Positions 5,735 through 60,806 of a DNA stretch of 64,000 nt are shown here, in pieces. Under the pieces are notes generated by a model. The model ran no database searches, had not been told where the DNA came from, and saw nothing but the letters and a program-made list of their open reading frames with translations. This DNA is from Scardovia inopinata JCM 12537 (GTDB taxonomy: Bacteria > Actinomycetota > Actinomycetes > Actinomycetales > Bifidobacteriaceae). The translations under genes and the position numbers were made by a program. Each line of letters opens with the position of its first letter. Positions within the stretch are counted from its first letter, which is position 1. The stretch spans positions 1,426,001-1,490,000 of the forward strand of contig NZ_AP012334.1 in assembly GCF_001042695.1 (NCBI RefSeq), given 5' to 3'.

Positions 5735-6958
5735 TTATAGGTTGGGGTTGGCGGTGAATCCTCCGTCGTATACGTAGGGTTTTGTGTAGCCTTTCATGAG
5801 TTTGGTTAGGGTTTGATTCAGGGTGATGGTTATCTCGGTTTTTCGTGTTGTCTTGTTAATAAAAAACAGTTGAACCGGGCGGAATTTTCCTCCACTTCCA
5901 TACTGAATACGTAGGATACTATAATAGTGGCGGGTCGAAGAAAAATCATTATGATGCTGCAGAAGATCATTATCCGATATGGTGCGGGGTAGGGGCTTCG
6001 GGTTGAACCGGTGGAGGATACGACCGGTATGCGTATTTACCTGGATCAGGTCCCCCGTCTCATAGGACACAAAAACCAGGGTTGACCCATCAGGGCTGAA
6101 ACTTCCTCTATCGTAGCTTTGTGACTGATCGTAAGGGACAGTAAGAGGATGGTTGTTCTTATCCCTGATAGGGATAAGAGTGGGTTTACCGGTGTGAATA
6201 TTCCACCTAAGGATCTGAGGTTGAGAAATATCCTCCCGAGGGTTATAAGACGCGACAGAAACATACTCCCCACGATCACAATAAGTAGTCCATATGCCAC
6301 CAGCAGACAGTTTCTTACTGGCGCTGTCTATAAGAAACTTTTTCGAGGAGAACGGTGCTATCTGACGAAGCATGAAATAGCTTAACCCTTTTTCCTCATC
6401 TACCGGCCCCTCCCGTAATCCCCATAAGTGCGTGCCACAAAAAGCACTGGACGACATAATCTCTGAGGTGATGGTGTGTAAGTTCTTGGAGGATAGGGGG
6501 ATGAGTTGGAGGGTGTTTTTAATATCAGCTGTAAACCCGACATCAAAAATACCCACAGCTTCTCCTTGAGGATCTTCTATAATCGTGTTCTGGAAGAGGG
6601 TTTTCGGGCTAGCTACTTCTCGATGCTGGTAAGGAGATGACGAGCTAATAAAATAGTTTGTCCGATAGTCAGCAAAAAACACTCCCCTCCTCGTCCACAG
6701 GGGCTTTTGATAGGCCATGCCGGCGGTTTTGATTGTCTGGTAGGAGCCATCTTTCCTGATGAACACCACCATCCCACCAGACTTACGCACCTCCTCCTCA
6801 TACTGAGGGTTCAAGGAAATAACAGCCACCACATCCCTCAAGGACACCTCCTGGAAGGGTATCATCTTCACCCGGGGAGAACACGCCGACAAGAAAACCA
6901 TACACCAGACAAGACACACGAGAACACACCACCTGACCCACCGCCGAAGAAAAAACAC
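5735..6958 (-). CDS. Putative secreted lipoprotein with beta-propeller-like repeats
   Basis: I do not recognise a named family. The frame is open to ATG 7084, but the N-terminus fits a lipoprotein signal best if translation starts at GTG 6958: short basic region (FFLRRWVRW), hydrophobic core, then a lipobox FLSAC. The mature part has strands such as FSPDGSTLVFVSYETGDLIQVNTHTGRI, which resemble TolB/WD40-like propeller blades. The product is expected to be anchored on the outer face of the membrane. The upstream half of the frame is unusually rich in G and T on the coding strand, and an 11-G run lies about 170 bases upstream of the chosen start. No clear ribosome site was found for either start, so the start is uncertain. 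Confidence 0.6.
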   Translation of the reverse strand: MFFLRRWVRWCVLVCLVWCMVFLSACSPRVKMIPFQEVSLRDVVAVISLNPQYEEEVRKSGGMVVFIRKDGSYQTIKTAGMAYQKPLWTRRGVFFADYRTNYFISSSSPYQHREVASPKTLFQNTIIEDPQGEAVGIFDVGFTADIKNTLQLIPLSSKNLHTITSEIMSSSAFCGTHLWGLREGPVDEEKGLSYFMLRQIAPFSSKKFLIDSASKKLSAGGIWTTYCDRGEYVSVASYNPREDISQPQILRWNIHTGKPTLIPIRDKNNHPLTVPYDQSQSYDRGSFSPDGSTLVFVSYETGDLIQVNTHTGRILHRFNPKPLPRTISDNDLLQHHNDFSSTRHYYSILRIQYGSGGKFRPVQLFFINKTTRKTEITITLNQTLTKLMKGYTKPYVYDGGFTANPNL

Positions 6959-7316
6959 GGGACTACAAGAAACAAGATAAGCTCTACAATCAGCAGACAC
7001 CCTACCAGACTCACCCACCAGACACCCCCATCGGCGTACCAGAAAACATGAAAAACAGAACAATAACATTCTTTCTTGCCACACACTCTACACCACCATT
7101 CCATAGCCTGCAAGAAACACTCCATCATTCCCCCCCCCCCACTAACCTCCCAAAAAAAACAAAACCCACACTAACCAGTCCAACAAAACCACACCACCCA
7201 ACAAAAACACGCCACCCACCCCAACCAGCAGCCACACACCACCCACAATGCAAAAACTCAGAAAATTATCCAGTTTACTCATAGTTTTCTTCATAAAAAT
7301 GTGCAAAAATACAGGT
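6959..7316. other. Strand-asymmetric, G-poor intergenic region with an 11-base C run
   Basis: Between the divergent lipoprotein and MscS genes the plus strand is almost free of G, especially about 7136-7246, and consists of C/A tracts. It holds an uninterrupted run of 11 C at 7130-7140. On the minus strand this reads as clustered GGG/GGGG tracts with G-quadruplex potential upstream of the lipoprotein gene. I see no RNA gene or convincing protein frame here. Confidence 0.7.
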
Positions 7317-54155: not shown

Positions 54156-54162
54156 ACTTTAT
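54156..54162 (+). repeat. Left target-site duplication ACTTTAT
   Basis: The seven bases directly before the left end of the composite element are repeated directly after its right end (57041-57047). Confidence 0.85.
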
Positions 54163-55123
54163 ACTCGTGGTGCTAGTTAATTTCAAAATATCTTAAATTA
54201 TAAGCTAATACGATTTGCTCTATCCTCAATTGCAATCCTGTTTTTCCTCTAGCTAGTGTTTGTTCCATATCGAAAAGCGTACAAAGTTCTGAAAAACGTG
54301 TCTCAATAGTCCTTCTCATAGCCATTAGTTTCCAATGATTATGTTGCTTAGCCCCCGCCATATTTTGACGTAAGGGAGTCCAAAGATGATAACCTTTTTG
54401 CTCCAAATGATCTCTAAGCTCACGACTAAGATAGCCCAAATCGGCCAAAATGTAAGAGTGATGGCAGTTTTCTAATAAGTCCTCAACGGCTCTACTATCG
54501 TGCACAGATGCTGGTGTTACAACGTAGTTCAGAATATAGCCTGACAAAGTGACCAGCATATGTACTTTGACCCCATAGAACCATAAGCGTTTGGAAGCAT
54601 TATAACCAATGTCTGCCCATCCATCAAAAATACGAGCTCTATAATTACGGACAGGTTGACAAAGTGGTAAGGGAAAACTGTCTATGATAACAATGGTATC
54701 TAGAGAAATTCGAGTATTCATTGCTTGTCTAATGATTTGGACTAACCAAATCAGCTGTCGTGCCCGCCGATTAAAACGACTTCTTTCAAGGAGACGACCA
54801 CAAGGAAAGAGTTGACAGATACGATAGAAATGACGTTGTGACTTAATGCCTAGTTCAGCTTGCAAGAGAAGCAAGACTAATAGAGAGTGGTCTGAAACTT
54901 TAGATAGACTAATATTGCGACGATGTTTGAAAGGTTCAGGGCAATAATCACGATACAGCTGATAACAAAGTTTTGATAATTGTTTGATATTCCATTGTAA
55001 GTGATGGGATTTAGCGGTATACTGTAAGTGGCTCATTTGAACGTCCTCTCTGTTTGTTTGGTCACTTACAGTATAGTCCTTTTGGGCTTTTTATGGTATT
55101 TTGAAATTAACTAGCACCACGGG
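54163..55123 (-). mobile_element. IS982-family element, complete copy
   Basis: A 961-base element with matching ends (outer ACTCGTGG..., inner end ...CCACGGGT, one mismatch from perfect inversion) and one transposase gene on the minus strand. Confidence 0.9.
54173..55036 (-). CDS. IS982-family transposase
   Basis: The 287-residue transposase has the IS982 pattern: LLLLQAELGIKSQRHFYRICQLFPCGRLLERSRFNRRARQL, first acidic residue in TIVIIDSFPLPLC (about 112-124), YGVKVHMLVTLSGYI, SVHDSRAVEDL, second in ILADLGYLSRELRD, and RRTIETRFSELCTLFDMEQ with the third (Glu). The frame is intact, so it could supply transposase for both copies. AT-rich codon use unlike that of its neighbours. Confidence 0.92.
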   Translation of the reverse strand: MSHLQYTAKSHHLQWNIKQLSKLCYQLYRDYCPEPFKHRRNISLSKVSDHSLLVLLLLQAELGIKSQRHFYRICQLFPCGRLLERSRFNRRARQLIWLVQIIRQAMNTRISLDTIVIIDSFPLPLCQPVRNYRARIFDGWADIGYNASKRLWFYGVKVHMLVTLSGYILNYVVTPASVHDSRAVEDLLENCHHSYILADLGYLSRELRDHLEQKGYHLWTPLRQNMAGAKQHNHWKLMAMRRTIETRFSELCTLFDMEQTLARGKTGLQLRIEQIVLAYNLRYFEIN

Positions 55124-55158
55124 TATCAATTCAAAAAAAGAAAGAGCGGAGGTAAAAC

Positions 55159-56361
55159 ATGAAAGAAAGCGAAGTTATCCTAAAGCGGCAGTCAACTAGA
55201 TTATTTTTTAAAAATGGTGATACAGATTTTTTCTTTAATTGGTTACTAGGAATTGGCGAAGTGTTTGGTTTTTCACATGGGGAGCTTTATTACCTCGCAC
55301 AACGGCTAGGGAAATCTCCAAAACCAAGTACTTGGAAAAAGGTATTTCTATCTCATGCAGACTACCTTGCACAAAAGCTAGGTAATCCAGATTTAAGCAA
55401 ACAAAGTAAAGCCCAATATTACCTAGCACAAACCTATTCTATTCGTTCGGCTATCCAATTTATTAATCCCTTTTCCGAGGAGTATCTTCCCACTGTTCAA
55501 CGGATGGAAGAATCTTTTAAGAAAGCAACTTATTCATTAAAAGCACCTATTGAGGAGTTAACTATTCACTATCAAGAATCCTACTTACCCGGTTATTACC
55601 TCCATAGTGGTGATGATTGTCCAACACTAATTATGATTGGTGGTGGGGATACGTATCGGGAAGATCTGTTTTATTTTGCAGGATACCCTGGATGGAAACG
55701 AGGCTATAATGTTTTAATGATTGATCTCCCAGGTCAAGGCTCTAATCCAAGTAGAGAACTCACTTTTGATGTGAATGCTGCTACTCCAATTTCACTATGT
55801 ATTGATTGGTTAGAAAACAAGAATCCTAAATTGAATCATTTAGCTATTTATGGTGTTAGCGGAGGTGGCTATTTCACTGCACAAGCTGTTGAACAGGATA
55901 CAAGAATTCAGGCATGGATTGCTAGCACCCCAATTTATGATATTGCCGAACTATTTAAAAAAGAGTTTGGATCCAGTTTAAAAACTTCTAGTTGGTTAAT
56001 GAATGCTATTTTAAAACTGGTTGGAAATTTAAATGAGTCTGCCGATTTAAATCTTCAAAAATATGCGTGGCAATTTGGAACTACTGATTTTAAAAAAGCT
56101 ATTGATGAGGTTTTTAAGGGGGCAAAGGTTGTAAATTATCACAAAGTTCAGTGTCCCTGTTTATTTATCATGGGAGAAGGAGAGAGTGCAGAATTACAAC
56201 GTCAAGCAAAGGTAGTTTACGAAGCCGTTAAATCCAAAAATTCCCATACTAGACTTCAGATATTTGAAGCTGAAAGTGGAGCGGATGCCCATTGCCAAGT
56301 CAACAATTTGAGACTTGTCCATAATGTAGTTTTTGACTGGTTAAACACTATATTTGAATAA
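55159..56361 (+). CDS. Alpha/beta-hydrolase carried by the composite transposon
   Basis: The 400-residue protein has a helical N-terminal part (about 1-140) and an alpha/beta-hydrolase core: oxyanion region MIGGGDTYREDLF (about 158-170), MIDLPGQGSNP, nucleophile Ser 234 in YGVSGGGYF, and a C-terminal ADAHCQVNN with the catalytic His. This is the FrsA/DUF1100-like group of larger hydrolases with an N-terminal cap, which includes C-C and ester hydrolases. Macrolide esterases of the EstT kind are serine hydrolases of similar size and shape; kinship with them is a hypothesis I cannot test here. GGAGG lies 8 bases before ATG 55159. Codons are AT-rich, pointing to a Firmicutes source. Confidence 0.85.
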   Translation: MKESEVILKRQSTRLFFKNGDTDFFFNWLLGIGEVFGFSHGELYYLAQRLGKSPKPSTWKKVFLSHADYLAQKLGNPDLSKQSKAQYYLAQTYSIRSAIQFINPFSEEYLPTVQRMEESFKKATYSLKAPIEELTIHYQESYLPGYYLHSGDDCPTLIMIGGGDTYREDLFYFAGYPGWKRGYNVLMIDLPGQGSNPSRELTFDVNAATPISLCIDWLENKNPKLNHLAIYGVSGGGYFTAQAVEQDTRIQAWIASTPIYDIAELFKKEFGSSLKTSSWLMNAILKLVGNLNESADLNLQKYAWQFGTTDFKKAIDEVFKGAKVVNYHKVQCPCLFIMGEGESAELQRQAKVVYEAVKSKNSHTRLQIFEAESGADAHCQVNNLRLVHNVVFDWLNTIFE

Positions 56362-56378
56362 AGTAATAAAGTAAATAT

Positions 56379-57040
56379 ACTCGTGGTGCCAGTTAATCTC
56401 AAAATACCATAAAAAGCCCAAAAGGACTATACTGTAAGTGCCTAAACAAACAGGAGGTTAGTCCAAATCATTAGACAAGCAATGAATACTCGAATTTCTC
56501 TAGATACCATTGTTATCATAGACAGTTTTCCCTTACCACTTTGTCAACCTGTCCGTAATTATAGAGCTCGTATTTTTGATGGATGGGCAGACATTGGTTA
56601 TAATGCTTCCAAACGCTTATGGTTCTATGGGGTCAAAGTACATATGCTGGTCACTTTGTCAGGCTATATTCTGAACTACGTTGTAACACCAGCATCTGTG
56701 CACGATAGTAGAGCCGTTGAGGACTTATTAGAAAACTGCCATCACTCTTACATTTTGGCCGATTTGGGCTATCTTAGTCGTGAGCTTAGAGATCATTTGG
56801 AGCAAAAAGGTTATCATCTTTGGACTCCCTTACGTCAAAATATGGCGGGGGCTAAGCAACATAATCATTGGAAACTAATGGCTATGAGAAGGACTATTGA
56901 GACACGTTTTTCAGAACTTTGTACGCTTTTCGATATGGAACAAACACTAGCTAGAGGAAAAACAGGATTGCAATTGAGGATAGAGCAAATCGTATTAGCT
57001 TATAATTTAAGATATTTTGAAATTAACTAGCACCACGAGT
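56379..57040 (+). mobile_element. IS982-family element, copy with a 299-bp internal deletion
   Basis: Both ends match the complete copy (ACTCGTGGTGCCAG at the inner side, CTAGCACCACGAGT at the outer). Compared with it, about 299 bases are missing between AAACAAACAG and TTAGTCCAAATC, removing the transposase start and first ~105 codons. Confidence 0.9.
56482..57030 (+). pseudogene. IS982-family transposase, N-terminally deleted
   Basis: The 182 residues from internal Met 106 onward are identical to the complete transposase in this window, as far as can be read. The missing N-terminus includes the DNA-binding region and removes the normal start, so the product is probably inactive. The identity implies recent duplication. 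Confidence 0.9.
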
Positions 57041-57047
57041 ACTTTAT
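57041..57047 (+). repeat. Right target-site duplication ACTTTAT
   Basis: Direct repeat of 54156-54162, immediately after the composite element. Confidence 0.85.
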
Positions 57048-57077: not shown

Positions 57078-57614
57078 ATGCAGGTGGATTTTCAGCAGGT
57101 TCTCTCCCAACTACGAGAAGAAAACCGGACCATAGAGGCGAGTAATCCTATTCTTAGTGATGGTGGAGCGGTTACTTTCACTTTCATTGACCTTCCCTAT
57201 GACTCTACACCGCAAGATGCTTCCCACCCTGATCGCTCAGAATTCCTCACCGACAAACGGCAAACAGCAGACCTCAAAAAAAACAATCACAGCGTTATCC
57301 ACGACCAAGACCATCTCTTCCACTACCTCATACACGTCACCTACAACACTTTCATGAAAGACATGAACACTATCCTGTCACTCACTAGCGGACACACCCA
57401 AAACTTCCTCAACTGGTTCAAGCGTAAAGCAGACCTAGTCTATAAGCATGATGTCGCTGACGCAGACGGAACCACCCACCACAAAGGAGAACCTGTGGCT
57501 GACTTGACAATTAGAAATTTTGATTTTCTCCGACAAACCCACTCACGAGCATTCCGTGATTATCAGCTTCGTTCCCAATATTTAGCAGAACAGAAAAGAC
57601 AGAATAATAAATAA
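57078..57614 (+). CDS. Hypothetical protein behind the composite transposon
   Basis: I do not recognise this 178-residue protein. It is soluble, charged and probably mostly helical (FQQVLSQLREENRTIEAS at the start; TYNTFMKDMNTILSLTSGHTQNFLNWFKRKADLVYK in the middle; RAFRDYQLRSQYLAEQKRQNNK at the end). The ribosome site is GGAGGGGGGGG, with a run of eight G, 5 bases before ATG 57078. Removing the transposon would place a TATACT box (54153-54158) about 35 bases upstream of this gene's ribosome site, so the insertion probably cut it off from its promoter. The reading frame itself is intact. Confidence 0.5.
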   Translation: MQVDFQQVLSQLREENRTIEASNPILSDGGAVTFTFIDLPYDSTPQDASHPDRSEFLTDKRQTADLKKNNHSVIHDQDHLFHYLIHVTYNTFMKDMNTILSLTSGHTQNFLNWFKRKADLVYKHDVADADGTTHHKGEPVADLTIRNFDFLRQTHSRAFRDYQLRSQYLAEQKRQNNK

Positions 57615-58226: not shown

Positions 58227-60806
58227 ATGCGATACGGGCACTTTGATGATAACGCCAGAGAATATGTTATCGACACTCCTACAACTCCGCTCCCCTGGAT
58301 CAATTATCTTGGAAATGAAAATTTTTTCTCTCTTATTTCGAATACCGGGGGAGGGTATTCATTTTATAAGGATGCCAAGCTACGACGCATTACACGTTAC
58401 CGGTATAATGGGGTACCCGCTGACAACGGAGCCCGCAGCTACTATATCAGTCTTATGAAAGACGACTGTCCGGATGATGAATATGCGGAGCCGATTGAAA
58501 CTTGGTCTCCGACTTTCCTCCCCGCTAAAAATACTTTAGATACTTACCGGTGCCGTCACGGTCTTGGATATTCAGTGTTTGAAACAACAAAAAAAGGAAT
58601 CAGCAGTAGTCTGACAGTTTTCGTTCCCCAAGGTGCGGACGCCGAGATCAATTTCCTGACAATTACGAATACCGAAAACTCCACTCGAACAATTGATATT
58701 ACAGCAGCGGTTGAATGGTGTCTGTGGAACGCAGCAGATGATTCCACCAACTACCAGCGCAATCTGTCTACGGGAGAAGTAGAGATAGAAAAAACTCCAG
58801 GATCTACATTTCTCTTCCACAAGACAGAATACAAAGAACGTCGTAATCATTACTCTTTCTTTGCTTCAAACCAGAATGACATAGGATTTGACACTGACCG
58901 AGATTCTTTCCTGGGCAAATTCAATGGCTGGGATAGCCCCCAAACTATTAAAACGGGAAAATCCACGAATTCTGTCGCTCATGGATGGGCTCCTATTGCA
59001 GCACATCATGTCCGCCTCAAGCTGGGACCAGGGCAAAAAGAAAATCTGGTCTTTTTATTAGGTTATATTGAACTGGAACAAGACGAAAAGTGGGAAGATC
59101 CTGATGATCCACGTAAAGTTGGAATTATCAATAAAATACCTGCTCATGATCTTTTCCACAAGTTTGATACGGAAGAAAAAGTTATCAAAGCATTACAGCA
59201 GCTCAAGGACTACTGGACCAACCTTCTCACTACTTTTCACCTTCATTCAGGCGATGCACAATTGGATAGAATGGTGAATGTTTGGCATCAATACCAATGC
59301 ATGGTGACTTTTAACATGTCGCGTTCAGCCTCTTATTTTGAATCTGGCGTTGGCCGCGGAATGGGATTCAGAGACTCCAACCAGGACATCCTGGGATTCG
59401 TCCATCTTATCCCCGAACGAGCCCGAGAGAGAATAATTGACATCGCATCGACCCAACTCGCCGATGGATCTGCCTGGCATCAATACCAGCCTCTAACCAA
59501 AAAAGGCAATGCCGATATTGGAGGAGGCTTCAATGATGACCCTCTTTGGCTGGTTGCCTCTACTTATGCTTATCTTGCGGAAACCGGTGACAGCAGTATT
59601 TTGTCTACTCCTACCCCTTTCAACAACCAGAAAGGAAGCCAGGTCAGTCTCTTGGAACATCTCAGACGATCAATCCACTTCACTCTATCTCACAGAGGAC
59701 CACATGGATTACCTCTCATCGGAAGAGCCGACTGGAATGATTGCCTCAATCTCAACTGCTTTTCTTCTCAGCCGGGAGAAAGTTTCCAGACTGTGGAAAA
59801 CAAAGATAGTAGTATTGCTGAAAGCGTCTTTATTGCTGGTATGTTCGTCTTATATGGAAATCAGTATCTGGATATTATTCAAACTTATCTATTAAACAGG
59901 AGCACATCTCTAAAGCATTTACCAAGTGGCTGGGATCAAGCACTTGCAAACAAAGAGGTACGGGAAGTGGGCCACGCTATTGATGAGATGAAGACGGCAA
60001 TTGAGACCTCAGGCTGGGATGGAGACTGGTTCCTGAGAGCTTACGATGCTCAGTCTCATCCGGTTGGATCGCACTTGAATAAGGAAGGCCAAATTTTCAT
60101 TGAGCCTCAGGGGATGTGCGTCATGGCAGGCATAGGTATTGAAAATGGAAAGGCGACTCAAGCTCTTAGTTCTGTATCCAATAAATTAACCAGTGAATGG
60201 GGAACTGCCATGCTGAAACCTGCGTACACGACTTATCACATTGAACTAGGAGAAATCAGCACCTATCCTTGCGGATATAAAGAGAATGGTGGAATCTTCT
60301 GCCATAATAACCCTTGGATATCCATTGCAAATGCACTTATCGGCAGAGATGCCGAAGCTTTTGCTGTCTACAAGAACAACTGCCCGGCCTATCTGGAAGA
60401 TAAATCAGATATTCGCAAGGTCGAGCCATATGTTTACTGTCAAATGGTTGCCGGGCCAGAGTCTTTTTGCCCCGGAGAGGGCAAAAATAGCTGGCTGACT
60501 GGAGCTGCGGCCTGGAATTTTCTGAATGTTTCTCAGTACTTATTGGGAATTCGACCAACTTTGCATGGTTTAACTATCGATCCTCATCTGCCTGAATCAT
60601 TTACATCTATATCTATCAACAGAACCTACCAAGGCCATATGTACAAAATCAACTTAAAACGAACAGGAAGCCGAAGCCTAAAAATCAACGGACAGAAGAT
60701 ACGAGGAAATACTATCCCTCTCTTTCCAACACTGTCTGAGTTTATGGCCCAGTCAGATTCTTCTCTACAAGCAAATTCTTCTCTTATGGTAGAAGCAACG
60801 TTCTAG
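58227..60806 (+). CDS. Glycoside hydrolase family 94, cellobiose-phosphorylase-like
   Basis: GH94 enzymes split beta-linked disaccharides with phosphate, saving ATP. The 859-residue protein opens MRYGHFDDNAREYVIDTPTTPLPWINYLGNENFFSLISNTGGGYSFYKDAKLRRITRYRYN as close relatives of clostridial cellobiose phosphorylase do, and has the catalytic Asp in GRADWNDCLN (about residue 505), RGMGFRDSNQDILG, and GPESFCPGEGKNSWLTGAAAW near the C-terminus. No signal peptide: cytosolic. ATG 58227 with GGAAAA upstream. It is followed by an esterase and a TetR regulator; a GH42 enzyme lies convergent, so the locus may use beta-glucan or plant-wall fragments. Exact disaccharide uncertain. Confidence 0.92.
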   Translation: MRYGHFDDNAREYVIDTPTTPLPWINYLGNENFFSLISNTGGGYSFYKDAKLRRITRYRYNGVPADNGARSYYISLMKDDCPDDEYAEPIETWSPTFLPAKNTLDTYRCRHGLGYSVFETTKKGISSSLTVFVPQGADAEINFLTITNTENSTRTIDITAAVEWCLWNAADDSTNYQRNLSTGEVEIEKTPGSTFLFHKTEYKERRNHYSFFASNQNDIGFDTDRDSFLGKFNGWDSPQTIKTGKSTNSVAHGWAPIAAHHVRLKLGPGQKENLVFLLGYIELEQDEKWEDPDDPRKVGIINKIPAHDLFHKFDTEEKVIKALQQLKDYWTNLLTTFHLHSGDAQLDRMVNVWHQYQCMVTFNMSRSASYFESGVGRGMGFRDSNQDILGFVHLIPERARERIIDIASTQLADGSAWHQYQPLTKKGNADIGGGFNDDPLWLVASTYAYLAETGDSSILSTPTPFNNQKGSQVSLLEHLRRSIHFTLSHRGPHGLPLIGRADWNDCLNLNCFSSQPGESFQTVENKDSSIAESVFIAGMFVLYGNQYLDIIQTYLLNRSTSLKHLPSGWDQALANKEVREVGHAIDEMKTAIETSGWDGDWFLRAYDAQSHPVGSHLNKEGQIFIEPQGMCVMAGIGIENGKATQALSSVSNKLTSEWGTAMLKPAYTTYHIELGEISTYPCGYKENGGIFCHNNPWISIANALIGRDAEAFAVYKNNCPAYLEDKSDIRKVEPYVYCQMVAGPESFCPGEGKNSWLTGAAAWNFLNVSQYLLGIRPTLHGLTIDPHLPESFTSISINRTYQGHMYKINLKRTGSRSLKINGQKIRGNTIPLFPTLSEFMAQSDSSLQANSSLMVEATF

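Follow-up and report, generated by a model that had tools for sequence, protein, structure and literature searches.

The window, a stretch of 64,000 nucleotides from the chromosome of Scardovia inopinata JCM 12537, contains a 2,878-bp composite transposon (positions 54163 to 57040) in a 1.80-Mb Bifidobacteriaceae chromosome. Two inverted copies of one IS982-family IS enclose unrelated DNA that carries a hydrolase gene, and the outer ends appear usable by a transposase, as judged from their sequence. The insertion site is about 160 bp past a gene for a LacI-type regulator and precedes another reading frame by about 30 bp. On either side of the unit the heptamer ACTTTAT is present as an exact 7-of-7 match (54156 to 54162 on the left and 57041 to 57047 on the right), so that a target-site duplication encloses the unit as a whole; neither IS copy by itself has matching flanks. 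We estimated that an exact 7-bp duplication at a fixed place would occur by chance about once in 10^4. Because the matching bases flank the outer ends only, the last move must have used those ends. The outer arms are identical inverted repeats over 585 bp (586 nucleotides with 100% complementarity when one flanking base on each side is included), and the inner ends of the arms, 92 bp long, are 87% alike. The element is single-copy within its own genome. Its GC content is 37.7%, compared to 46.4% and 44.0% in the 5-kb flanks, and no other 2,878-bp stretch of the window fell below 43.0%. A first-pass annotation of this DNA had described the unit as much more AT-rich than its surroundings; it is indeed the lowest-GC stretch of the window, but the contrast on the right is smaller than was implied because the right flank is itself fairly AT-rich.

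The left arm (54163 to 55124, minus strand) is a complete IS982-family element of 962 bp with the ends ACTCGTGG...CCACGGGT. It encodes a full-length transposase of 287 amino acids (54173 to 55036, minus strand) that matched the curated NCBIfam IS982 model NF033520 with 276.5 bits over positions 1 to 242 of 243 and the Pfam DDE domain family DDE_Tnp_1. Both IS copies exceeded the cutoff of 130 bits for the NCBIfam model, with 276 bits for the left copy and 229 bits for the right copy. Members of the IS982 family are defined as elements of about 1 kb with terminal inverted repeats that start with 5'-AC (PMC7335449), and the 962-bp element described here has the tips ACTCGTGG and ACCCGTGG. A predicted DDE triad (D119, D199, and E245) falls at the expected places in the motifs IID119SFPL, AD199LGYL, and TIE245TRF. 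The left transposase thus reads as intact and is the candidate mover of the unit. The right arm (56379 to 57040, plus strand) is an inverted copy of 662 bp which, when aligned with the left arm, shows a net internal loss of 300 bp (previously given as 299 bp) that includes the transposase start. The deletion junction, AGGAGGTTA (56452 to 56460, plus strand), was also recorded as the sequence AAACAGGAGGTTAGTCC. The in-frame transposase remnant (56482 to 57030, plus strand) retains 182 amino acids, including the whole catalytic DDE part, and is missing the N-terminal 105 residues; as had been claimed, all 182 residues are identical in the left and right frames. The coordinates, the arms, and the IS982 model match all bore out the reading of this locus as a composite of two inverted IS982-family copies with exact outer inverted repeats.

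The size of the duplication was compared with those left by related elements by surveying 20 full-length single-copy relatives whose ends could be resolved, of which all except two came from whole genomes of Streptococcus. Exact duplications were present at the tips of eight of these, 7 bp long in 6 of the 20 and 8 bp long in 2 of the 20. Since single-copy relatives show duplications of 7 or 8 bp, the 7-bp repeat that the first-pass annotation had noticed around the unit is a product typical of this IS type. Among the streptococcal IS982-family elements tabulated in PMC7335449, ISScr1 and ISSpy2 match the left arm in size and gene position (962 bp, with a 287-amino-acid transposase at positions 89 to 952), and ISScr1, ISSpy2, and ISSa4 share its AC ends and produce duplications of 6 to 9 bp; this likeness is one of tabulated features, and the nearest full copies found were at most 92.5% identical. 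Unlike those three, the element described here resides within an actinobacterium and is part of a composite. There is a precedent for such composites in the putative IS982-family composite transposon that carries blaRAA-1 in Empedobacter and Riemerella (PMC10101081). That element also holds cargo between two IS982-family copies and occurs in more than one genus, a resemblance of description, but its hosts are different and its cargo is a named resistance gene.

The passenger gene (55159 to 56361, plus strand) encodes a 400-amino-acid alpha/beta hydrolase of the SMU_737 type with an N-terminal helical domain (Pfam Hydrolase_4/Peptidase_S9; PDB 3FNB, E = 1e-122), a gene on which the first-pass annotation was silent. 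It is preceded by an upstream remnant (55125 to 55158, plus strand) that aligned with the sequences of plasmids and of Catonella. Missing here is the native TATAAT-like box, which is located past the point where the IS inserted. Other IS982 members form hybrid promoters (PMC7335449). We do not claim one for the left IS end (TTGAAA-17-TATCAA, 55101 to 55129), as the match is weak and promoter-like sites were no more frequent in the region than in shuffled sequence. Rfam gave no match near the element.

In a structural model of the passenger (pLDDT of 82), the closest solved structure was that of SMU_737 of Streptococcus mutans (PDB 3FNB), with a VIA-align Z score of 49 and a root mean square deviation of 1.9 over 365 residues of the predicted fold. 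The two proteins are 46 to 48% identical and appear to share the same fold over their whole length, a relation confined to sequence and predicted fold. Farther full-length matches of the model, at Z scores of 26 to 32, included 2,6-dihydroxypseudooxynicotine (DHPON) hydrolase, AntI, FrsA, and Ayg1-type polyketide-shortening enzymes, with DHPON hydrolase and AntI both at about 32. The serine (Ser234) and the glycines of a GxSGGG motif, as well as His378, are invariant in 15 relatives. The fold suggests that the passenger is likely a hydrolase of an ester, lactone, or carbon-carbon bond. We found no assay supporting the title "acylaminoacyl peptidase" under which SMU_737 was deposited (PDB 3FNB), and a literature search for SMU.737 returned nothing. 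PADLOC had no match, and therefore a role in defense is not suggested. No relative of the passenger was found among viral contigs.

Together with its leader, the passenger is 98.6% identical at the DNA level to sequences on four plasmids, from Lactobacillus paragasseri, Limosilactobacillus fermentum, L. gastricus, and Lacticaseibacillus paracasei. On all four it lies beside genes for an MFS transporter and a TetR-type regulator, three also carry a resolvase, and an IS982 element of this type is absent beside the passenger on each of them. The protein is 99% identical to a homologue in Catonella morbi, and homologues that have diverged further are present in S. oralis, a Streptococcus metagenome-assembled genome (MAG), Lancefieldella rimae, a Saccharibacteria MAG, and a sister species, where the gene is located within an ICE-like region (genome G186, locus L010). 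The homologue in the Streptococcus MAG (L053, positions 6001 to 7197) resides in a Tn916-type integrative element, adjoins a TetR-type regulator gene, and has an internal stop. The homologue from the MAG of Candidatus Saccharibacteria, a very reduced organism (L046, positions 6001 to 7197; 58% identical), could reflect either transfer or a binning error.

Relatives of the passenger on conjugative or mobilizable plasmids and in the Tn916-type element would accord with import in a larger plasmid or conjugative element that entered the chromosome through recombination, either homologous or site-specific, the match of the two ACTTTAT copies then being fortuitous. However, the element has no plasmid or ICE genes as neighbors; it is flanked by the gene for the LacI-type regulator and by a reading frame that has relatives throughout the genus. 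The 7-bp match coincides exactly with the IS tips and is as long as the duplications that this IS type usually makes; we consider such an import highly improbable, the least credible of the explanations weighed here. A larger vehicle probably did bring the element into the cell, yet did not itself integrate at this site. The settings of the hydrolase gene (plasmids with an MFS exporter and a TetR regulator, a Tn916-type element, an ICE-like region, and the IS982 transposon described here) indicate that, among oral and vaginal bacteria, no fewer than four kinds of mobile DNA have acquired it, and this suggests a function under selection. That this function is detoxification or resistance, through which the enzyme is passed from one phylum to another in the oral and vaginal flora of humans because of a selectable advantage, is a possibility that we raise only tentatively.

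The history of the unit was clarified by Catonella morbi ATCC 51271, in which one locus (L038) matches element positions 963 to 2534 without a break; the match begins at the left end of the passenger, crosses the deletion junction, and extends into the right IS. The right IS copy of this locus is truncated at its outer end, and its deletion junction is the same base for base. There is no left IS; the upstream flank is uninterrupted plasmid-type sequence in which the left IS site is empty, as it likewise is in the plasmids. Since Catonella has the same deletion, the loss from the right arm is older than the arrival of the element in S. inopinata and is ancestral, contrary to the earlier implication that it had occurred within this unit. 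Moreover, because Catonella shares the junction and its left site is empty, it appears that the right IS was in place, and had already suffered its deletion, before the left IS joined it. A second hydrolase copy in C. morbi (L040, positions 6001 to 7203), 91% identical, lies directly beside a DDE transposase fragment, and the gene has therefore probably been acquired there more than once.

The same comparison bears on how the identity of the two arms should be read. The right IS differs from that of Catonella at 16 of 318 bp and the passenger at 6 of 1,200 bp, without any synonymous change. At positions 30, 36, 42, and 447 to 616 the right copy matches the left copy and differs from Catonella, and at positions 3, 12, 20, 63, 65, and 76 it matches Catonella and differs from the left copy; the majority of the Catonella differences are unique to Catonella. 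This mosaic fits gene conversion in which the left arm served as donor to the right one. Decay of the Catonella remnant is an alternative reading, against which stands the lack of any synonymous change in the passenger. Given that the inner ends are only 87% alike, the identity of the outer arms may owe something to gene conversion besides recency. A simple clock based on identical arms was rejected, as gene conversion is plausible, and since either process can explain the mosaic, we regard arm identity as only a soft sign of recency. The claim of a recent arrival was supported by the duplication size, the single copy, and the absence of the element from 188 other family genomes, and its argument from the arms is qualified by possible gene conversion.

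Two independent IS982 insertions around a hydrolase gene that was already resident or had arrived otherwise, and that never moved as a composite, would be consistent with the 87% likeness of the inner ends, which shows that the arms are more than a mere duplicate of a single insertion, and with the travels of the hydrolase without IS982 on plasmids and ICE-like regions. Against this, it is the two outer ends that the duplication joins, the single copies being without matching flanks; the passenger is foreign in composition; a close copy at this place is lacking in the two sister species; and in Catonella the same right IS, with its deletion, is already linked to the passenger. Independent insertion thus appears very unlikely.

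In a search of one genome from each of 284 Streptococcus species, the IS had matches in 106, the best full copy being 92.5% identical. A fragment in S. oralis subsp. dentisani was closer (97.5% identical over 243 bp and 93.9% over 423 bp). The IS was absent from 188 other Bifidobacteriaceae genomes, where the only relative of any part of the element was one 77% hydrolase, and from the 395 other genomes in a sample of 396 Actinomycetota. Among 299 genomes of the Catonella family, a substantial match was found in Catonella only. Relatives of the transposase in viral contigs were just 83 to 89% identical in protein. The complete composite was found in no genome but its own, and no candidate donor yielded a nearly identical full-length IS. 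The near-identical matches in Streptococcus or Lactobacillus proposed earlier as support for transfer were thus obtained for the passenger (98.6% on the Lactobacillaceae plasmids) but not for the full IS. Nevertheless, the abundance of the IS in Streptococcus and the 98 to 99% passenger alleles in Lactobacillaceae plasmids and Catonella agree with the suggestion of a Firmicutes origin, and comparison of the sequences supports transfer from Firmicutes (Bacillota) into an actinobacterium. Most likely the transposon was built stepwise elsewhere, in an oral bacterium of the Bacillota.

Together, these results make us highly confident that the locus is an IS982-family composite transposon that was assembled stepwise elsewhere and moved here as one unit. 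In the proposed order of events, an IS downstream of the hydrolase gene would first have undergone the internal deletion, a stage seen in Catonella morbi, after which a full IS would have inserted upstream of the hydrolase in inverted orientation. The transposase of the left copy could then act on the two identical outer ends so that the 2,878-bp unit moves in one piece, and the last such move would have brought it to the present chromosomal site, with duplication of 7 bp. The kind of element is ordinary; what is new is its cargo and the visible assembly intermediate. It clearly exemplifies the passage of a composite transposon from Firmicutes to an actinobacterium, with an intermediate of its assembly preserved in a third organism.

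The neighborhood to the right of the element was also inspected. The reading frame at 57078 to 57614 encodes 178 amino acids; its start, about 30 bp to the right of the insertion, follows eight consecutive G residues that resemble a ribosome-binding site. It had no Pfam match, and its C-terminal tail (DLVYKHD...GT.H..G.P...LRSQYLAEQK) is common to otherwise different tandem proteins in the same genome (L014) and in sister species. Farther right, at 58227 to 60806, a gene for a GH94-family phosphorylase, which had no match in the two sister species, is followed by one for a BD-FAE-type esterase.
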